In this document: piece by piece, positions 17,353-26,464 of the stretch | How the letters are laid out: the number at the start of each line of letters is the position of its first letter | Position numbering within the stretch: position 1 is the stretch's first letter | Assembly: GCA_003212315.1 (NCBI GenBank) | Contig: QCQB01000008.1 | Span: forward strand, 1 to 64,000 | Direction: 5' to 3' | Source of the DNA: SAR116 cluster bacterium AG-447-C21 | Lineage (GTDB): Bacteria > Pseudomonadota > Alphaproteobacteria > Thalassobaculales > Thalassobaculaceae | Length of the DNA stretch: 64,000 bases | The notes under the pieces: model-generated | Databases searched by the model: none | Told to the model about the DNA's origin: nothing | Seen by the model: the letters and a program-made list of their open reading frames with translations, nothing else | Program-made: the position numbers and the translations under genes

Positions 17353-18800
17353 TCACTATTAATTCTGGCAGAATCGATTTGATTAAGATTACTTGATATT
17401 CTTTTTATAAGTGACCATGCGTTTTCTACGTGTTTAAGCTGGGTATTAGTCTGTCCAATCGACCAACGAATAGTAAATTTCCCACGAACTCGATTTTGAG
17501 TAAAGTAGACGCGGCCGCTATCGTTTAATCGATTCAATAGATCTTCATTTAAAAGATCAATATCCGCTGATTTTGTAATATTTTTCGGTCGAAACCTAAA
17601 ATTTAATAAGGATAAAGACCTCGGTGATACCAATTCAAACTCAGGATCCTCATCTATCCAAGTAGCAGCGTATTCGGCCAATTTAATATGATTTCGGATG
17701 ATCTTCTGAAGACCTTTAACACCATAAGAGCGTATCACAAACCAGAGTTTTAAGGCCCTAAACCGCCGCCCCAGAGGAACGCTCCAATCGCGATAGTCAA
17801 TCACCTGATCTTGTTCTCTACTTTTTAGATATTCCGGAAGGATTGATAGAGTACGAATAAGCAATTCCGGTTGTTTTACATAATGCGCTGAACAATCAAA
17901 ATTCGTTAATAGCCATTTATGTGGATTGAAAACAATACTATCTGCCATTTCAATTCCCTCTGCCATCCATCGTTCTTCAGGCAAGATTAAAGCAGAGCCA
18001 GCCCACGCAGCATCAACATGCAAAAAAATTTCATATTCTTTGCAGAGTTGGCCAATAGCCTTCAGCGGATCGGTAGCACCGACGCCCGTGGTACCCATTG
18101 ATGCAACTACACATGCAGGGATATGTCCATTCGATATATCCTCTAGAACGTTGCGCCTTAGTGCTTCAGGACACATCTCAAAGCTATTACCCGTGCGGAT
18201 AAGTCGGACGCTATCTTTGCCAAAGCCTGCGATCTTTGCACCCTTTTCTGTGGAAGAGTGTGCCTCTTCCGAAGTATACACTATCAGTGATGACGACAAC
18301 GAGTTCATCCCCTCTTTATTAGTTCGCCAGTCAGTAGCTTTTTCCCGTGCGGTCAAGAGAGCACATAATGTAGCACTTGAAGCAGAGTCCTGAATCACGC
18401 CGTGCAAATCAGTTGGTAAACCTGTCATCTTTTGCAACCAGCCCGTTATTCGCGTTTCCATTTCAGTAGCAGCAGGGCTAGTCTGCCACAACATACATTG
18501 CGCTCCCAACGTCGAAGTTAACATCTCAGCAAGTACTGATGGAGGACTGGAATTGGCAGGAAAGTAAGCAAAAAAACTTGGGTGCTGCCAGTGTGTCATT
18601 CCCGGGATAATTTTTTTCTTAAAATCCTCGAAAATATTTTCCATGGGCTCACCATCAAGTGGAGGCTCGTCATCGAGGAGTGACAAAATATCTCCAGGGT
18701 TGACCTGGGATCGCACGTCAAAATTTTCAACAGAGTCCATATAATCGGCCATCCAGTCAATCAAAGCATGTCCATTTTTGCGGAATTCTTCAGACTTCAT
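17349..18800 (-). CDS. Pyridoxal-dependent aromatic amino acid decarboxylase family
   Basis: Group II PLP decarboxylase of 483 residues, closest in pattern to DOPA/tryptophan/tyrosine decarboxylases. It shows the substrate-side motif WQHPSFFAYFPA (71-82), His181 stacking on PLP, Asp263 in HVDAAWAG and the PLP lysine Lys295 in NPHKWLLTNFDCS. It would release CO2 from an aromatic amino acid to give an amine. Its ATG overlaps the queG stop by four bases (ATGA), so it is translationally coupled to a tRNA-modification gene, an unexpected pairing. Substrate preference cannot be read safely. Confidence 0.9.
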   Translation of the reverse strand: MKSEEFRKNGHALIDWMADYMDSVENFDVRSQVNPGDILSLLDDEPPLDGEPMENIFEDFKKKIIPGMTHWQHPSFFAYFPANSSPPSVLAEMLTSTLGAQCMLWQTSPAATEMETRITGWLQKMTGLPTDLHGVIQDSASSATLCALLTAREKATDWRTNKEGMNSLSSSLIVYTSEEAHSSTEKGAKIAGFGKDSVRLIRTGNSFEMCPEALRRNVLEDISNGHIPACVVASMGTTGVGATDPLKAIGQLCKEYEIFLHVDAAWAGSALILPEERWMAEGIEMADSIVFNPHKWLLTNFDCSAHYVKQPELLIRTLSILPEYLKSREQDQVIDYRDWSVPLGRRFRALKLWFVIRSYGVKGLQKIIRNHIKLAEYAATWIDEDPEFELVSPRSLSLLNFRFRPKNITKSADIDLLNEDLLNRLNDSGRVYFTQNRVRGKFTIRWSIGQTNTQLKHVENAWSLIKRISSNLNQIDSARINSD

Positions 18801-19957
18801 ATAGAACCTCTTGATCCAGAATTCATCGAACTTTCTGAATTATAATCAATATTTAAAGCCATATACCACTCTTCACGAACAGTTTTATCCATTTCTGATT
18901 TGAGATGTTGGACTGATAATTCTTTCATTTTGTTAATGGGTAAAATTCTTCCTAATACCCAGACGCACATTGCGCGAACGATACTAGATGGATCATTCAA
19001 TAAATTTAACAAATCAATTGACGGGGCTCTAATAGAAGAATTACCTAACGCAATTAAAACATTTCGAATAAATCTATCCCGGCCAATGCGCTTGATAGGG
19101 GAACCACTAAATTTTTCTCTGAATAAGGAATCATCGAGGCTAAGGAAATCTTCTAAAAGCGGTAAATTTAGATCCTCTCTAGGGATGAATGCAGCTTCCC
19201 TAGCCATCTTTGAAAATTTGTTCCACGGACAAACCGCTAAACAATCATCACAGCCATAAATACGATTACCCATTTTCTCCCGATATTCGAGGGGTATGTG
19301 ACCCTTGTGCTCTATTGTAAGATAGGAAATACAGCGACTAGCATCAAGCATATACGGTTCTGGAAAAGCGTTAGTTGGACAGATATCAAGACATTTCGTA
19401 CAAGATCCGCAGTGATCTACTTCCATTTCATCTGGATCTAATTTTAAAGTAGTAAAAATTTCACCCAGAAATAACCAGGAACCAAAGCTTTGATTAACAA
19501 GATTGGAGTGCTTGCCTTGCCAACCTATTCCGGCAGCCTGACCAAGTGGCTTTTCTAATATGGGAGCAGTATCAACAAAAACCTTTAAATCACAGTTGAA
19601 CTCTTTGCCTAACCATCTTCCCAGTTTTTTTAATCGTTTTTTTATAACGTTGTGATAGTCCTTATTTCTGGCGTAGACGGAGATATTCGCTCTATTGATA
19701 GATCTCAAGTCATCTAAAGGATTGACTTTAGGCCCATAGTTCATAGCAACAGCAATAACGGAACGAACATCTGGCCACAATGTACGGGGGTCTTGTCTTC
19801 TTTCGAGGTGATCTGACATCCATGTCATATCCCCGTGCTGTCCCAAGGAGACGAATGCTTCGAGCCGTGCTTTTTCCCGAAAACCCATCTTAGCTTGAGC
19901 AAAACCTATGGCGTCGAATCCCTCTTCTTTGGCTCTCGTTCTTATACGCTCTTTCAT
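18797..19957 (-). CDS. queG: Epoxyqueuosine reductase QueG
   Basis: Last step of queuosine synthesis: cobalamin-dependent reduction of epoxyqueuosine in tRNA. The general acid is Asp129 in FVDTAPILEKPLG. The two [4Fe-4S] clusters are held by Cys183/186/189/193 and Cys209/236/239/243 (CDDCLAVCPWN). The C-terminal HEAT-like segment completes a normal 386-residue protein. It lies 39 bases after tgt on the same strand and overlaps the downstream decarboxylase. The enzyme requires vitamin B12. Confidence 0.96.
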   Translation of the reverse strand: MKERIRTRAKEEGFDAIGFAQAKMGFREKARLEAFVSLGQHGDMTWMSDHLERRQDPRTLWPDVRSVIAVAMNYGPKVNPLDDLRSINRANISVYARNKDYHNVIKKRLKKLGRWLGKEFNCDLKVFVDTAPILEKPLGQAAGIGWQGKHSNLVNQSFGSWLFLGEIFTTLKLDPDEMEVDHCGSCTKCLDICPTNAFPEPYMLDASRCISYLTIEHKGHIPLEYREKMGNRIYGCDDCLAVCPWNKFSKMAREAAFIPREDLNLPLLEDFLSLDDSLFREKFSGSPIKRIGRDRFIRNVLIALGNSSIRAPSIDLLNLLNDPSSIVRAMCVWVLGRILPINKMKELSVQHLKSEMDKTVREEWYMALNIDYNSESSMNSGSRGSI

Positions 19958-19996
19958 TTATCCCCTTCAGTTGATGCTTAAGTAAAGCAAAGAGCC

Positions 19997-21130
19997 TTAT
20001 AGTCTCTCGATTGCTTTTATATCTCCTTTTGTTTGCATCTCCATGAAAGATTGAACAAAATTGTCCAATTTGTTTATGGATATTGCCTGCCTTAAACCGT
20101 TCATCAATTCCTGATAGTAATGTAAATTATGCCAAGTTAATAACATCGCTCCAAGGATTTCACCCGACCTCACCAAGTGATGTAAGTACCCACGGCTAAA
20201 ACCATTACAAGCAGGACACTCACACAGCTCATCTAACGGCCTTGGATCGGCAGAGTGCCGAGCATTTCTTATATTAACCTGGCCATTTCTTGTAAATGCC
20301 TGCCCTGTCCTGCCCGATCGAGTTGGAAGCACACAATCAAACATATCCACCCCCCTAATAACACCCGCCACTAAATCTATTGGTTTTCCCACGCCCATTA
20401 GGTATCGTGGTTTGTTTTCCGGCAGAACTGATGCTGTTATATCAAGAATTCGGGTCATTTCCTGATGTCCTTCGCCAACCGCCAACCCCCCGATAGCGTA
20501 ACCATCAAATCCAATTTCTGTAAGAGCATCCACCGAATTTAATCGAAGTTTTTCAAAAGTGCTTCCTTGAACAATTCCAAAAAGACCATATCCTTTTTTT
20601 TGTTTAAATGCTTTTTTAGAACGCTCCGCCCAACGCATTGACATTAACATGGATTCCTCTGCTATCGTCTCTGCAACGGGGTACGGCGTGCATTCATCAA
20701 AAGCCATTGTAATATCCGCATCCAAACTTCTTTGTATTTCAATCGAGCTTTCGGGAGTGAGCTTATGATAAGACCCGTCGATGTGGCTTCTAAACCTAAC
20801 ACCATCTTCATCAATTTTCCTTAACGTCGCTAACGACATCACCTGATAACCGCCAGAGTCGGTCAGGATTGGTCCCGGCCAACCCATAAAATCATGTAAA
20901 CCCCCAAACTCCTCAATTCGCTTTGCACCAGGCCTCAACATCAAGTGATATGTATTTCCAAGTACAATTTCTGCCCCAGTAGCCTTTACAGATTCTGGTA
21001 ACATTGCTTTTACAGTGGCTGCCGTTCCAACAGGCATGAAGGCAGGGGTATTTATTACGCCATGAGCGGTTTCTAATTTTCCACATCTAGCGGCGCCATC
21101 TATCGAGCTCAAAGAAAAGCGAAGTGTCAT
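19997..21130 (-). CDS. tgt: tRNA-guanine transglycosylase
   Basis: Exchanges the wobble guanine of GUN anticodons for preQ1. The sequence has Asp91 in [12 protein letters not shown], nucleophile Asp265 in [21 protein letters not shown] for base recognition, and the zinc site Cys303/305/308 with a histidine near 334. The length of 377 residues is normal. It is the first gene of a minus-strand unit tgt, queG and the decarboxylase. Confidence 0.97.
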
Positions 21131-21881: not shown

Positions 21882-22700
21882 TTATTTCAAGACTAGGGTA
21901 TCGATAAATGTTTTGAGAGACATCCCGATCTCACCTCCAGCTTTGGAGGCTATATTATTTAGATTTGACAAAATACCATCGTTATAGACAGACGAGCCAT
22001 CTCCAATACACGCTGACATACCACTAACGGTGCCGGCAATAATCCCTCTGTTATTCAGTGGCTCTAATCTGGTCAGCCCGGCATCTTCTTTACCTCTGCC
22101 TGCATCATGGAAGAAAGCTGCAAATGCTTGACATCTCAGAGCACTTTCGGAGTCTGGGGCGGGAATCCCACCGTGGCTACCTGTGACAACGATAGAGCCT
22201 TTATCTCTTTCTTTAACAAGGGAGGCAGAATCCATAAGAACCACTCGCCTTTTACCTCCGTCAACGGCAAGTTCTATTCGAGCCTCAGAATACTCAGGCG
22301 TACTTCGTTTGATTATCCTCGCTTTGCATAATTTATAAGCCGCCTCAAGAGCAGTCATCCCTACTGTGACGCCTAAATTCTTGGCCTCTAAATTGATAAA
22401 AGAGACAATACCATCGTTAACATGACTTTCTGCATTTCCAATGCAGCACGACAAAGTGTCAATCGCTGCATATGGAATCCCCAATTCTTGGCAATAATCA
22501 CCACCGGCTACGCCAGAATTATTTTTTGCAAAACCTGCGTCGTTCAGGATAACACCGCGGACCTCCTCTTTTACCGCTAAGTATGTTGCGTATATCCCGC
22601 CGTGTGATCCCCCTATTATGACTCTGTTCACACATTCAGAGCCTATTTTGGTGACGGAATTAGCAACAACAATCTTATCATCGATTATTCGGTTCTGCAT
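21882..22700 (-). CDS. Uncharacterised protein with an internally duplicated GSHGG / CIG-NDGI domain
   Basis: A 272-residue protein I cannot assign to a named family. It consists of two diverged copies of one domain. Each copy has GSHGG (residues 31-35 and 174-178), then DAG followed by a lysine and glycine (54-56 and 199-201), then Cys-Ile-Gly with Ser, Asn-Asp-Gly-Ile and a closing Asn (86-103 and 231-248), then a GM before a helix. Spacing between motifs is nearly identical (55 and 57 residues from GSHGG to CIG). There is no signal peptide or membrane segment. It lies between the E1 beta gene and the EthD-like gene, all in one operon, so it probably serves the same pathway. Confidence 0.7.
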   Translation of the reverse strand: MQNRIIDDKIVVANSVTKIGSECVNRVIIGGSHGGIYATYLAVKEEVRGVILNDAGFAKNNSGVAGGDYCQELGIPYAAIDTLSCCIGNAESHVNDGIVSFINLEAKNLGVTVGMTALEAAYKLCKARIIKRSTPEYSEARIELAVDGGKRRVVLMDSASLVKERDKGSIVVTGSHGGIPAPDSESALRCQAFAAFFHDAGRGKEDAGLTRLEPLNNRGIIAGTVSGMSACIGDGSSVYNDGILSNLNNIASKAGGEIGMSLKTFIDTLVLK

Positions 22701-22740: not shown

Positions 22741-23721
22741 TCAGTTTCCGCTATCCATCATGATGGTAGCTACATCAACAATGTTAGTGGCGGTCACTCG
22801 TATCATATCTTCTAAAGGTGGCGCATACGAAATGGGTACACGTGGTGCTGCACAACGACGAACCGGATGTTTCAAGGCTTTAAACATATGCTCTGAAACA
22901 GTTGCCGCAATTTCCGCTCCAAAACCTCCTACAGAAACACTTTCATGAGTTACTAGTAACCTTCCTGTTTTTTCTACAGAAGAAAAAACAGCCTCCTTAT
23001 CCCAAGGCCATAAGGTTCTCAAATCAATAACCTCGGCTGAAATCCCTTTTGTCTGCAAATTTTCGGCTGCCTCAGAAGCAACGTGCAACTGTGCCGACCA
23101 AGACACAATTGAGATATCGGCACCTTCCCGCTCAATTCTGGCTTTTCCAAATGGCAACAAAATGTCTTCATCTGGCACCTCGCCTTTTATACCCCAAATA
23201 TTTTTATGTTCAAGATATACGACCGGATCATCAGACCGAATTGCTGATTTCAATAAACCTTTATTATCGGCCGGCGTTGAAGGTACAACAACCACGAGAC
23301 CAGGAATATGTGTATACCAACTCTCTAATGACTGACTATGCTGTGCTGCCGAAGACCTCCATATACCCATAGGTTCTCTTATAACCATCGGCACATTGGT
23401 CTGCCCACCAAGCATATAGCGCGCTTTTGCAGCCTGATTGACGAGTTCATCAACTGCACAAAGGGCAAAGTCAGCGAAGCGCATCTCAACCACTGGGCGC
23501 GTGCCAGCCATTGCAGCACCGACACTCGCCCCCATTATGGCGGCCTCGGAAATCGGTGCATCAGAAATTCGCTCCGACCCAAATTCTTCAACAAGACCTT
23601 TATATTGCCCAAAGACACCCCCTCTTCCCAGGTCCTCTCCTACTGCCCACACTAAAGGGTCTCTGCGCATCTCTTCTGCTAGTGCCGCCTTCGCTGCATC
23701 GGCGTAAGTCATAACCGTCAT
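22741..23721 (-). CDS. 2-oxoacid dehydrogenase E1 component, beta subunit
   Basis: Transketolase-fold beta subunit of a pyruvate, acetoin or branched-chain type 2-oxoacid dehydrogenase; 326 residues. Visible motifs are WAVGEDLGRGGVFGQY, the ISEAAIMGASVGAAMAG region with the cofactor glutamate, VVEMRFADF, and a C-terminal domain with TLWPWD and VTHESVSVGGFGAEI. Its start overlaps the alpha-subunit stop by one base (TAATG), so the subunits are co-translated. No lipoyl E2 or E3 gene is in the window. Confidence 0.93.
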   Translation of the reverse strand: MTVMTYADAAKAALAEEMRRDPLVWAVGEDLGRGGVFGQYKGLVEEFGSERISDAPISEAAIMGASVGAAMAGTRPVVEMRFADFALCAVDELVNQAAKARYMLGGQTNVPMVIREPMGIWRSSAAQHSQSLESWYTHIPGLVVVVPSTPADNKGLLKSAIRSDDPVVYLEHKNIWGIKGEVPDEDILLPFGKARIEREGADISIVSWSAQLHVASEAAENLQTKGISAEVIDLRTLWPWDKEAVFSSVEKTGRLLVTHESVSVGGFGAEIAATVSEHMFKALKHPVRRCAAPRVPISYAPPLEDMIRVTATNIVDVATIMMDSGN

Positions 23722-24761
23722 TAAAAGGCCTCCTCTCTGGGATCACCACTATCCTGAACATCCTCATATGCAAGTTGCAACTCTGGCCATGGCGCTTGCT
23801 TTGCCTCATCATAGATCGCTCGCATTTCACTAAGAGCATCCGTCTGGTGTCCTTCTAAATCCTCATCTAGGACTCCCGCATTTTTGAGTAAATCTCTGCA
23901 CTTAGAGATAGGGTCATTTCTCCAAGCTTCATCAACATCTTTTTGCTCTCTATACAGAGCAGGATCTGATGCTGTATGTCCATGTAATCGATAAGTGTTG
24001 CAAAGAATAAAGCGAGGTCCACCACCAGATCTAATTTCTTCAATATTTTGTCTAACACATTCATCGACTTCAACGATGTCGTTACCATCGACTTCTTCGG
24101 CGGGAATGCCTAATGATTGCGCTCGCTGTTTACCACCCTCTCCAGAGGTCATAGCTTCTGTTACTGTTGTAGAGGCAAAACCATTTTTTTCACATACAAA
24201 AAGCACTGGTAACTTGAAAACACCAGCCCAATTCAACCCTTCCAAAAATGGGCCTCTATTGATTGCTCCGTCCCCGAATATACAACATGATATATTATTT
24301 CCTCCTTTTAATTTGATAGCATGGGCCGCCCCAGAGGCTATATTGATGTTAGCGGAAACTACGCCGTTGGCACCAAGCATGCCTACACTAAAATCAGCAA
24401 TATGCATTGAGCCGCCTTTACCCTTACATATGCCCCCTCTTCTACCAAGCAACTCAAGCATCATTGATTGAGGATTTGCGCCTTTTGCCAGCGTATGTCC
24501 ATGGCCCCGATGTGTACTCAATAAAAAGTCGTCTTTTTCTAGGTTTTGGCAAACGCCCGAGGCTATAGCTTCTTGTCCTATTGATAAATGAATAGCACCT
24601 AAAACCAAACCATCAGCATTTGCAGTAGCAGCAGTCTCTTCGAACGCCCGGATTCTGTTCATCATTTTATGATGGTTGAAATATCGCTCAATATCTAAAT
24701 TTAAAGGAATACTTGAAGACAAAAAAATCTCCTTCGCTATTACATCATACCTTAACACCAT
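23721..24761 (-). CDS. 2-oxoacid dehydrogenase E1 component, alpha subunit
   Basis: ThDP-binding subunit of 346 residues. It has STHRGHGH (82-89), the diphosphate-magnesium motif beginning GDGAINRGPFLEG (163 onward) and CEKNGFASTT. Similar proteins are the alpha subunits of acetoin or pyruvate dehydrogenases, which decarboxylate a 2-oxoacid or cleave acetoin and pass the acyl group to a lipoyl protein. GGGGAG precedes the ATG. It is the first gene of a four-gene minus-strand operon. Its substrate is unknown. Confidence 0.92.
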   Translation of the reverse strand: MVLRYDVIAKEIFLSSSIPLNLDIERYFNHHKMMNRIRAFEETAATANADGLVLGAIHLSIGQEAIASGVCQNLEKDDFLLSTHRGHGHTLAKGANPQSMMLELLGRRGGICKGKGGSMHIADFSVGMLGANGVVSANINIASGAAHAIKLKGGNNISCCIFGDGAINRGPFLEGLNWAGVFKLPVLFVCEKNGFASTTVTEAMTSGEGGKQRAQSLGIPAEEVDGNDIVEVDECVRQNIEEIRSGGGPRFILCNTYRLHGHTASDPALYREQKDVDEAWRNDPISKCRDLLKNAGVLDEDLEGHQTDALSEMRAIYDEAKQAPWPELQLAYEDVQDSGDPREEAF

Positions 24762-25426: not shown

Positions 25427-26464
25427 ATGAGGGTAGATATTTTTGACTATGATTTGCCCGTTGAGAAAATAGCAACGTCACCGGTGAGACCTCGCGACGC
25501 ATCAAGGTTACTAGACTTAACCGGGGGCAGATTAGCAGATAAAACCATCCTAGATCTCCCCGGTATTCTTCAGCCCAATGACCTTTTAGTGATAAACGAT
25601 ACCCGCGTTATTCCCTCTCGACTAAAAGGTCTTAGAGACAGTGTTAAAATTGAAATTACTTTACATAAACAGATCGAAAACGGAATTTGGGCTGCCTTTG
25701 CACGGCCGGCAAAGCGCCTAAAACAAGGTGATAAAATCGTATTCACCAACACGTTTAAAGCTACCGTGCGATCACGCAATGCCGGGGAAGTGATCTTGGA
25801 CTTCCAAAGCGATGATCAGACAATTTTAGACGAATTACAAAAAATTGGAAGAATGCCACTCCCTCCCTACATCAAACGATCAGAGCTCTCTAAATCAGAA
25901 TTAGATCAACAAGACTATCAATCGATTTTTGCAGAGCGGCTAGGAGCAGTTGCAGCGCCAACTGCCAGTCTTCATTTTACACCCGCCCTTCTCAACGAGA
26001 TAAAGTTGCAGGGCGTCAAACAAGTTAATATTACACTGCATGTGGGAGCGGGAACATTTTTGCCCATAACGGCTTCCGACTCTGATGACCATAGAATGCA
26101 TTCGGAATGGGCTGAATTAACTAACGATGCTATCTCTTTGATAAAAGAAACTAAAAAAAGTGGAGGCAGGGTAATCGCCCTAGGAACAACAGTTTTAAGA
26201 GTTTTAGAAACGGCTGCATTGAATGGAGAGTTGCGAGCATTTTCCGGTGAAACCGATCTTTTTATAACACCAGGTTTTACGTTCAATGTTGTTGATCTAC
26301 TTTTGACAAATTTCCATCAACCACGATCTACTCTGATAATGTTAGTAGCGGCTTTTGCCGGAACAGATCGGATTTTAGAGGCTTACGAATATGCAAAAAA
26401 TAAAGGGTATCGATTTCTTTCCTATGGAGATGCATGTCTGATCGAAGATATGAATAAAGTTTGA
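25427..26464 (+). CDS. queA: S-adenosylmethionine:tRNA ribosyltransferase-isomerase
   Basis: Adds the epoxycyclopentanediol ring to preQ1 in tRNA using the ribosyl group of SAM. Family motifs MRVDIFDYDLP, INDTRVIPSRLKG, QTIFAERLGAVAAPTA-like YQSIFAERLGAVAAPTA, LHVGAGTFLP and TNFHQPRSTLIMLV are all present. The length of 345 residues is normal. It follows the precursor transporter by six bases and so is expressed with it. Confidence 0.97.
   Translation: MRVDIFDYDLPVEKIATSPVRPRDASRLLDLTGGRLADKTILDLPGILQPNDLLVINDTRVIPSRLKGLRDSVKIEITLHKQIENGIWAAFARPAKRLKQGDKIVFTNTFKATVRSRNAGEVILDFQSDDQTILDELQKIGRMPLPPYIKRSELSKSELDQQDYQSIFAERLGAVAAPTASLHFTPALLNEIKLQGVKQVNITLHVGAGTFLPITASDSDDHRMHSEWAELTNDAISLIKETKKSGGRVIALGTTVLRVLETAALNGELRAFSGETDLFITPGFTFNVVDLLLTNFHQPRSTLIMLVAAFAGTDRILEAYEYAKNKGYRFLSYGDACLIEDMNKV

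Follow-up and report, generated by a model that had tools for sequence, protein, structure and literature searches.

Gene organization of the locus

The window analysed here is a 64,000-nucleotide stretch (positions 1 to 64,000 of contig QCQB01000008.1, GenBank assembly GCA_003212315.1) of SAR116 cluster bacterium AG-447-C21. The genome is that of a SAR116 relative, and the closest contigs, L001 and L002, were 92–93% identical. The gene under study encodes a two-domain protein and lies in a minus-strand gene run opened by E1 alpha (Table 1). The stop of E1 alpha overlaps the start of E1 beta by one base, E1 beta is located 40 nt upstream of the two-domain gene, and the gene for an EthD/DUF4286-like protein follows 13 nt downstream. 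The window E1 alpha and the other, PDH-like E1 alpha of the same genome shared 33% identity and are distinct genes. No E2 or E3 genes were seen near the window E1 pair. E2 was not found in the whole window genome either, which says little since the genome is 83% complete.

Table 1. Positions of the two-domain protein gene, its domain copies and the adjacent genes in the window.
Feature	Position	Strand	Basis and remarks
E1 alpha (E1_dh)	23721..24761	minus	Pfam/NCBIfam; ThDP motif GDG...N intact
E1 beta (Transket_pyr + Transketolase_C)	22741..23721	minus	Pfam/NCBIfam
Two-domain protein gene	21882..22700	minus	ORF; 272 aa, ATG start
Domain copy 1, ~residues 5-133	22302..22688	minus	D1/D2 profile match and family conservation
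Domain copy 2, ~residues 148-272	21885..22259	minus	Single-domain relatives align to copy 2
EthD/DUF4286-like protein, 227 aa	21185..21868	minus	DUF4286 4e-5, 24.2 bits (cut-off 25.8)

The preliminary description had drawn a role for the protein from its place between the E1 pair and the EthD-like gene. The E1 part of this setting recurs across taxonomic families (see below), while the EthD-like neighbor is lineage-specific: it adjoins the family only in L001, L002, and L046 (SAR116 and a family relative). The likeness to EthD/DUF4286 covers the N-terminal half of the 227-aa protein, and in L046 its gene is followed by hydantoinase A/B genes. The module is flanked by queuosine-like genes (window 18797-21130 and 25427-26464; tgt-, queG-, and queA-like by reading of the sequence). 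The tgt- and queG-like genes are downstream of the module, and the queA-like gene is beyond the divergent side. In the related genome G380 (L046), counterparts of the tgt- and queG-like genes lie within a few kb of the family member.

Distribution of the family

Homologues of the two-domain protein were present in 48 of 385 sampled genomes of the class Alphaproteobacteria. Thus, about one in eight of these genomes, SAR116 marine bacteria included, carries this nameless family. Further homologues were located on plasmids of haloarchaea, Rhodococcus, Rhizobium, Aminobacter, Methylovirgula, and Ponticoccus, where they are labelled as hypothetical proteins, if annotated at all. The window protein matched no Pfam family above the cut-off and no NCBIfam family, and a sequence search of the PDB gave no significant match, in agreement with the earlier failure to assign it to a named family. 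A literature search found no paper on the family, and scanning of viral contigs with the family alignments yielded no relatives. It is a real, widespread, unnamed bacterial protein family. One member, L021 (G194:C131:11557-12336), was a six-frame match with one in-frame TAG, yet a 274-aa open frame is called in L117; a start-site or assembly issue in G194 is possible.

Structure prediction was poor. The AlphaFold model of the full protein, built with a three-sequence alignment, had a pLDDT of 34. For domain 2, with the domain 1 rows serving as the alignment, pLDDT was 49 and pTM 0.50, with alternating strands and helices. A Foldseek search of the PDB with this domain 2 model retrieved nothing at E 0.001 or better.

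Internal duplication

All motifs and spacings listed in the preliminary description were found in the window protein. GSHGG occupies residues 31-35 in copy 1 and 174-178 in copy 2 of the 272-aa protein; DAG is at 54-56 (with K59/G63) and 199-201 (with K204/G208), CIG at 86-88 and 231-233 (55 and 57 residues from GSHGG, respectively), and NDGI at 95-98 and 240-243. Aligned against each other by BLASTP, the two halves of the window protein were 29% identical over 110 aa (E 7.5e-14). Comparison of the D1 and D2 family profiles, each based on one half of 44 family proteins, gave E 5.2e-45 over 127 columns (hhalign). These two values place the duplication far beyond chance, and the proposal of tandem copies of one domain holds for the family as well as for the window protein.

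The family pattern of copy 1 is DS.T...GSHGG...NDAG...G...SC[CR]IG...G..S..N, and that of copy 2 is DS.S...GSHGG...[NH]DAG...G...SA[RC]IGD...G..S..N. In the domain tree, first copies and second copies form separate groups, so the duplication predates the spread of the family. Judged by these comparisons of sequence, both copies derive from one old duplication. Single-copy relatives of about 131 aa are also present (L066, L067, and L072-L075). L067 (G713) and L066 (G605) are single-domain homologues from outside Alphaproteobacteria; the L067 gene has an SDR gene on one side and a 344-aa gene on the other, closely packed on one strand.

Conserved residues

Conservation was counted on 44 aligned family proteins. 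The consensus of one copy is DS.(T/S)L...D.G.VVV.GSHGG......FNDAG.G.D.AG...L..L...GIAA..V...SARIGD......G.IS..N..A...G...GM. Invariant or nearly invariant positions were S32, D54, G56, G63, G88, G97, S100, and N103 in copy 1 and D157, S158, S175, H176, D199, G201, G233, G242, S245, and N248 in copy 2. In the NDGI motif, Gly alone is invariant across the family.

An active or ligand site in each copy, with Cys among its residues, had been suggested earlier. Ser, His, Asp, and Asn are indeed conserved, and their conservation supports S32/S175, H33/H176, D54/D199, and N103/N248 as a putative ligand or active site of each copy. The Cys part of the suggestion fell away. The positions of Cys86 and Cys231 are each occupied by Arg in 35 of the 44 proteins, and Cys was found in only 2 and 3 of them, respectively; a catalytic Cys is thus unsupported. 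The window protein has Cys at both Arg positions, and its activity may be shifted as a result.

Linkage with two ThDP enzymes

The linkage survey covered 54 loci, each over a stretch of sequence around the family gene. The E1 pair was found in 20 of them and an acetolactate-synthase-like (ALS-like) ThDP enzyme in 18; 13 loci had both, and 25 had at least one of the two. Gene order in the module varied among the linked loci. In five loci (L047, L048, L060, L082, and L085), the stop of the homologue overlaps the ALS-like start. Several linked operons include IclR regulators and TRAP DctPQM transporters.

For co-occurrence, we compared 42 genomes that encode the two-domain protein with 38 alphaproteobacterial genomes that lack it. 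ALS-like orthologs were delimited at ≥580 bits and ≥60% identity (all other matches had ≤328 bits), and E1 beta orthologs at >400 bits. The ALS-like ortholog was present in 33/42 genomes with the protein vs. 0/38 without it, where the strongest match had 304 bits. The E1 beta ortholog, part of a PDH-E1-like alpha/beta pair, was present in 34/42 vs. 0/38. Fisher tests, which ignore kinship and use controls unmatched for genome size, gave p 1.8e-14 for the ALS-like enzyme and 3.2e-15 for E1 beta. In families f1, f29, and f42, one genome had all three genes and its sampled sister none. Among 396 genomes surveyed phylum-wide, a single one carried the ALS-like ortholog, and this one has the two-domain protein. 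Both ThDP partners were missing in eight genomes with the protein. In seven genomes (G380, G080, G195, G197, G290, G082, and G044), the ALS-like gene was distant or on another contig, so proximity does not explain the co-occurrence. The surroundings of such unlinked ALS-like genes gave no common pathway; succinate dehydrogenase (SAR116), methylmalonyl-CoA mutase (G380), and xanthine-dehydrogenase-type (G044) genes were found there. Most of the larger clade of the protein tree consists of members that have a ThDP module (4 label changes against 14 expected).

No ALS-like gene was found in the window genome, which is 83% complete. The genomes of both sister SAR116 contigs, L001 and L002, encode the ALS-like enzyme at 61% identity, and the absence from the window genome is therefore probably a gap. 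In family f67 (L064, L083, and L084), the homologue adjoins a DTW-domain gene, and another ThDP enzyme is encoded close by, a fused pair of the 2-oxoacid:ferredoxin (indolepyruvate-type) oxidoreductase kind (716 + 501 aa; TPP_enzyme_C, POR, and DUF6537).

The co-occurrence and linkage of the two-domain protein with the ALS-like enzyme and the E1 pair are new here. The functional tie to E1 alpha/beta, for which conservation of the neighborhood had been named as the check, is strongly supported, holds across at least 14 taxonomic families, and takes in a second ThDP enzyme as well.

Substrate clues

At about 60% identity (E 1e-137), the L062 DctP matches PDB 4p8b, which we take to be a TRAP binding protein from Ralstonia eutropha in complex with (S)-2-acetolactate. 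This ligand could be a carry-over from purification. 2-Acetolactate is reported as a ligand in a screen of TRAP binding proteins (review, PMC5812351). In haloarchaea and in L065, one rhizobial-type alphaproteobacterial genome, OiaK-like and OiaX-like genes adjoin the family, and on the haloarchaeal plasmids TRAP and IclR genes accompany them. These neighbors scored 445–536 bits vs. equivalog cut-offs of 700, and hence their substrate may differ. In structure, 3-oxo-isoapionate is an acetolactate that carries two additional hydroxyls. In the apiose pathway, 3-oxo-isoapionate-4-phosphate serves as a substrate of RuBisCO-like proteins (PMC6302742). No OiaK/OiaX-like genes of the D-apionate pathway were found in the window. 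From what these clues have in common, we infer a 2-hydroxy-2-alkyl-3-oxo acid as the candidate substrate.

Proposed role and alternatives

Its almost constant co-occurrence with two thiamine-dependent enzymes in Alphaproteobacteria suggests that the protein probably performs one step of an undescribed pathway for the breakdown of a small branched keto acid. Our best reading, which we hold tentatively, is that of an uncharacterised enzyme in a catabolic module for 2-hydroxy-2-alkyl-3-oxo acids. It would be a soluble enzyme with an internal duplication, from a family not yet described, acting in one module with the ALS-like ThDP enzyme and an E1 pair that has no E2/E3 genes nearby. The TRAP transporter would import a small branched 2-hydroxy-2-alkyl-3-oxo acid of the acetolactate type, and the ThDP enzymes would cleave its C-C bonds. 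The two-copy protein may bind the acid or a cleavage product via the Asp/Ser/His/Asn/Arg set of each copy and catalyze a non-redox step to feed or clear the ThDP enzymes, such as acyl migration or epimerisation, decarboxylation, or hydrolysis. Among these candidate reactions, we favor an isomerisation of the hydroxy-keto acid, at a low level of confidence. In haloarchaea and the rhizobial-type genome, the protein would have the same role beside OiaK/OiaX-like enzymes acting on a hydroxylated analogue. The eight genomes that lack both ThDP partners count against the module reading, as do the Rhodococcus, hydantoinase, and aromatic-catabolism contexts of the family, which point to wider use. There is a small chance that the family represents a new enzyme fold and an undescribed step of a branched hydroxy-keto acid pathway widespread in Alphaproteobacteria and haloarchaea, e.g., an acetolactate-type isomerisation without metal and NADPH. 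The tie to two ThDP ortholog groups, and partly to TRAP transporters, turns an orphan protein into a testable member of a pathway, and the module context supplies a defined set of candidate substrates.

The near-perfect co-occurrence with the ALS-like enzyme, the stop-start overlaps, and the pseudo-symmetric two-copy build would also fit a partner subunit of that enzyme with a regulatory or non-catalytic function, comparable in role to the acetolactate synthase small subunit and unrelated to it in sequence. We consider this unlikely, because the two genes are far apart or on different contigs in several genomes, haloarchaeal and Rhodococcus members occur without any ThDP partner, and the polar residues are conserved in the manner of a ligand site. 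The mixed neighbors of the family (VOC, RidA-family, hydantoinase, aromatic and acyl-CoA pathways, SDRs) could be accounted for by an enzyme that clears or repairs reactive small carbonyls in general and was recruited to many catabolic operons in which dicarbonyls or 2-hydroxy-3-oxo acids are set free. That explanation seems doubtful to us, since the tight alphaproteobacterial link to two particular ortholog groups calls for a specific role. It is very improbable that the ThDP link is indirect, with the gene belonging to a neighboring pathway and traveling jointly by chance or shared transfer. Linkage by itself could come from gene blocks, and relatives are not independent, but the co-occurrence persists at long distance, across about 16 families, and with variable gene order.

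A further alternative is that the protein belongs, as a remote and duplicated member, to the DUF1805 (YunC/TA1206) superfamily and shares its function. DUF1805 was matched by 35 of the 44 members (best E 1.1e-7), and hhalign with the pooled profile gave P 3.5e-4, compared to 0.47–0.87 for reversed or shuffled columns; the single-domain profile matched over 80 columns with P 5.8e-4. The DUF1805 alignment used here consisted of database sequences alone. The window protein, however, reached 19.3 bits against DUF1805 (PF08827), where the Pfam gathering cut-off is 29.5, and the pooled hhalign match spans only 29 columns. Moreover, IMS (Y-family DNA polymerases) was matched equally well (33/44 members, best 7e-9), and the two matches lie within or overlap one helical stretch of the window protein, which points to a common local motif. 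We therefore regard membership as rather improbable and read the DUF1805 likeness as a local motif found in both or, at most, as unproven distant kinship. IMS was dropped as an identity because the match is weak and local.

Comparison with known systems

The two-domain family resembles DUF1805 (YunC, TA1206/1qw2) in the C-terminal helix motif A..lGi..GM...eA..l and in the N-D close to the central strand. DUF1805 is a single domain without the GSHGG or SARIGD motif, and its match to the family is local and below the cut-off. The strand-GGSHG-helix stretch weakly resembles the GxSxG elbow of alpha/beta hydrolases (UPF0227/YqiA, E 0.01). S32 is invariant within GGSHGG, and the elbow match itself is below the cut-off (16.2 vs. 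21 bits; 4 of 44 members only). The family unit of about 130 aa is too short for the alpha/beta hydrolase fold, and UPF0227 was rejected as a weak local match.

The module partners of the two-domain protein belong to superfamilies of ThDP enzymes, of the acetolactate synthase and acetoin dehydrogenase E1 types, and the ALS-like partner reaches the cut-off of none of the listed families; the two-domain protein itself matches neither a ThDP-enzyme nor an ACT domain. In the D-apionate/3-oxo-isoapionate pathway (OiaK, OiaX), we know of no named member of the two-domain family. Some family members adjoin OiaK/OiaX-like genes, and the substrate of that pathway is a hydroxylated acetolactate.
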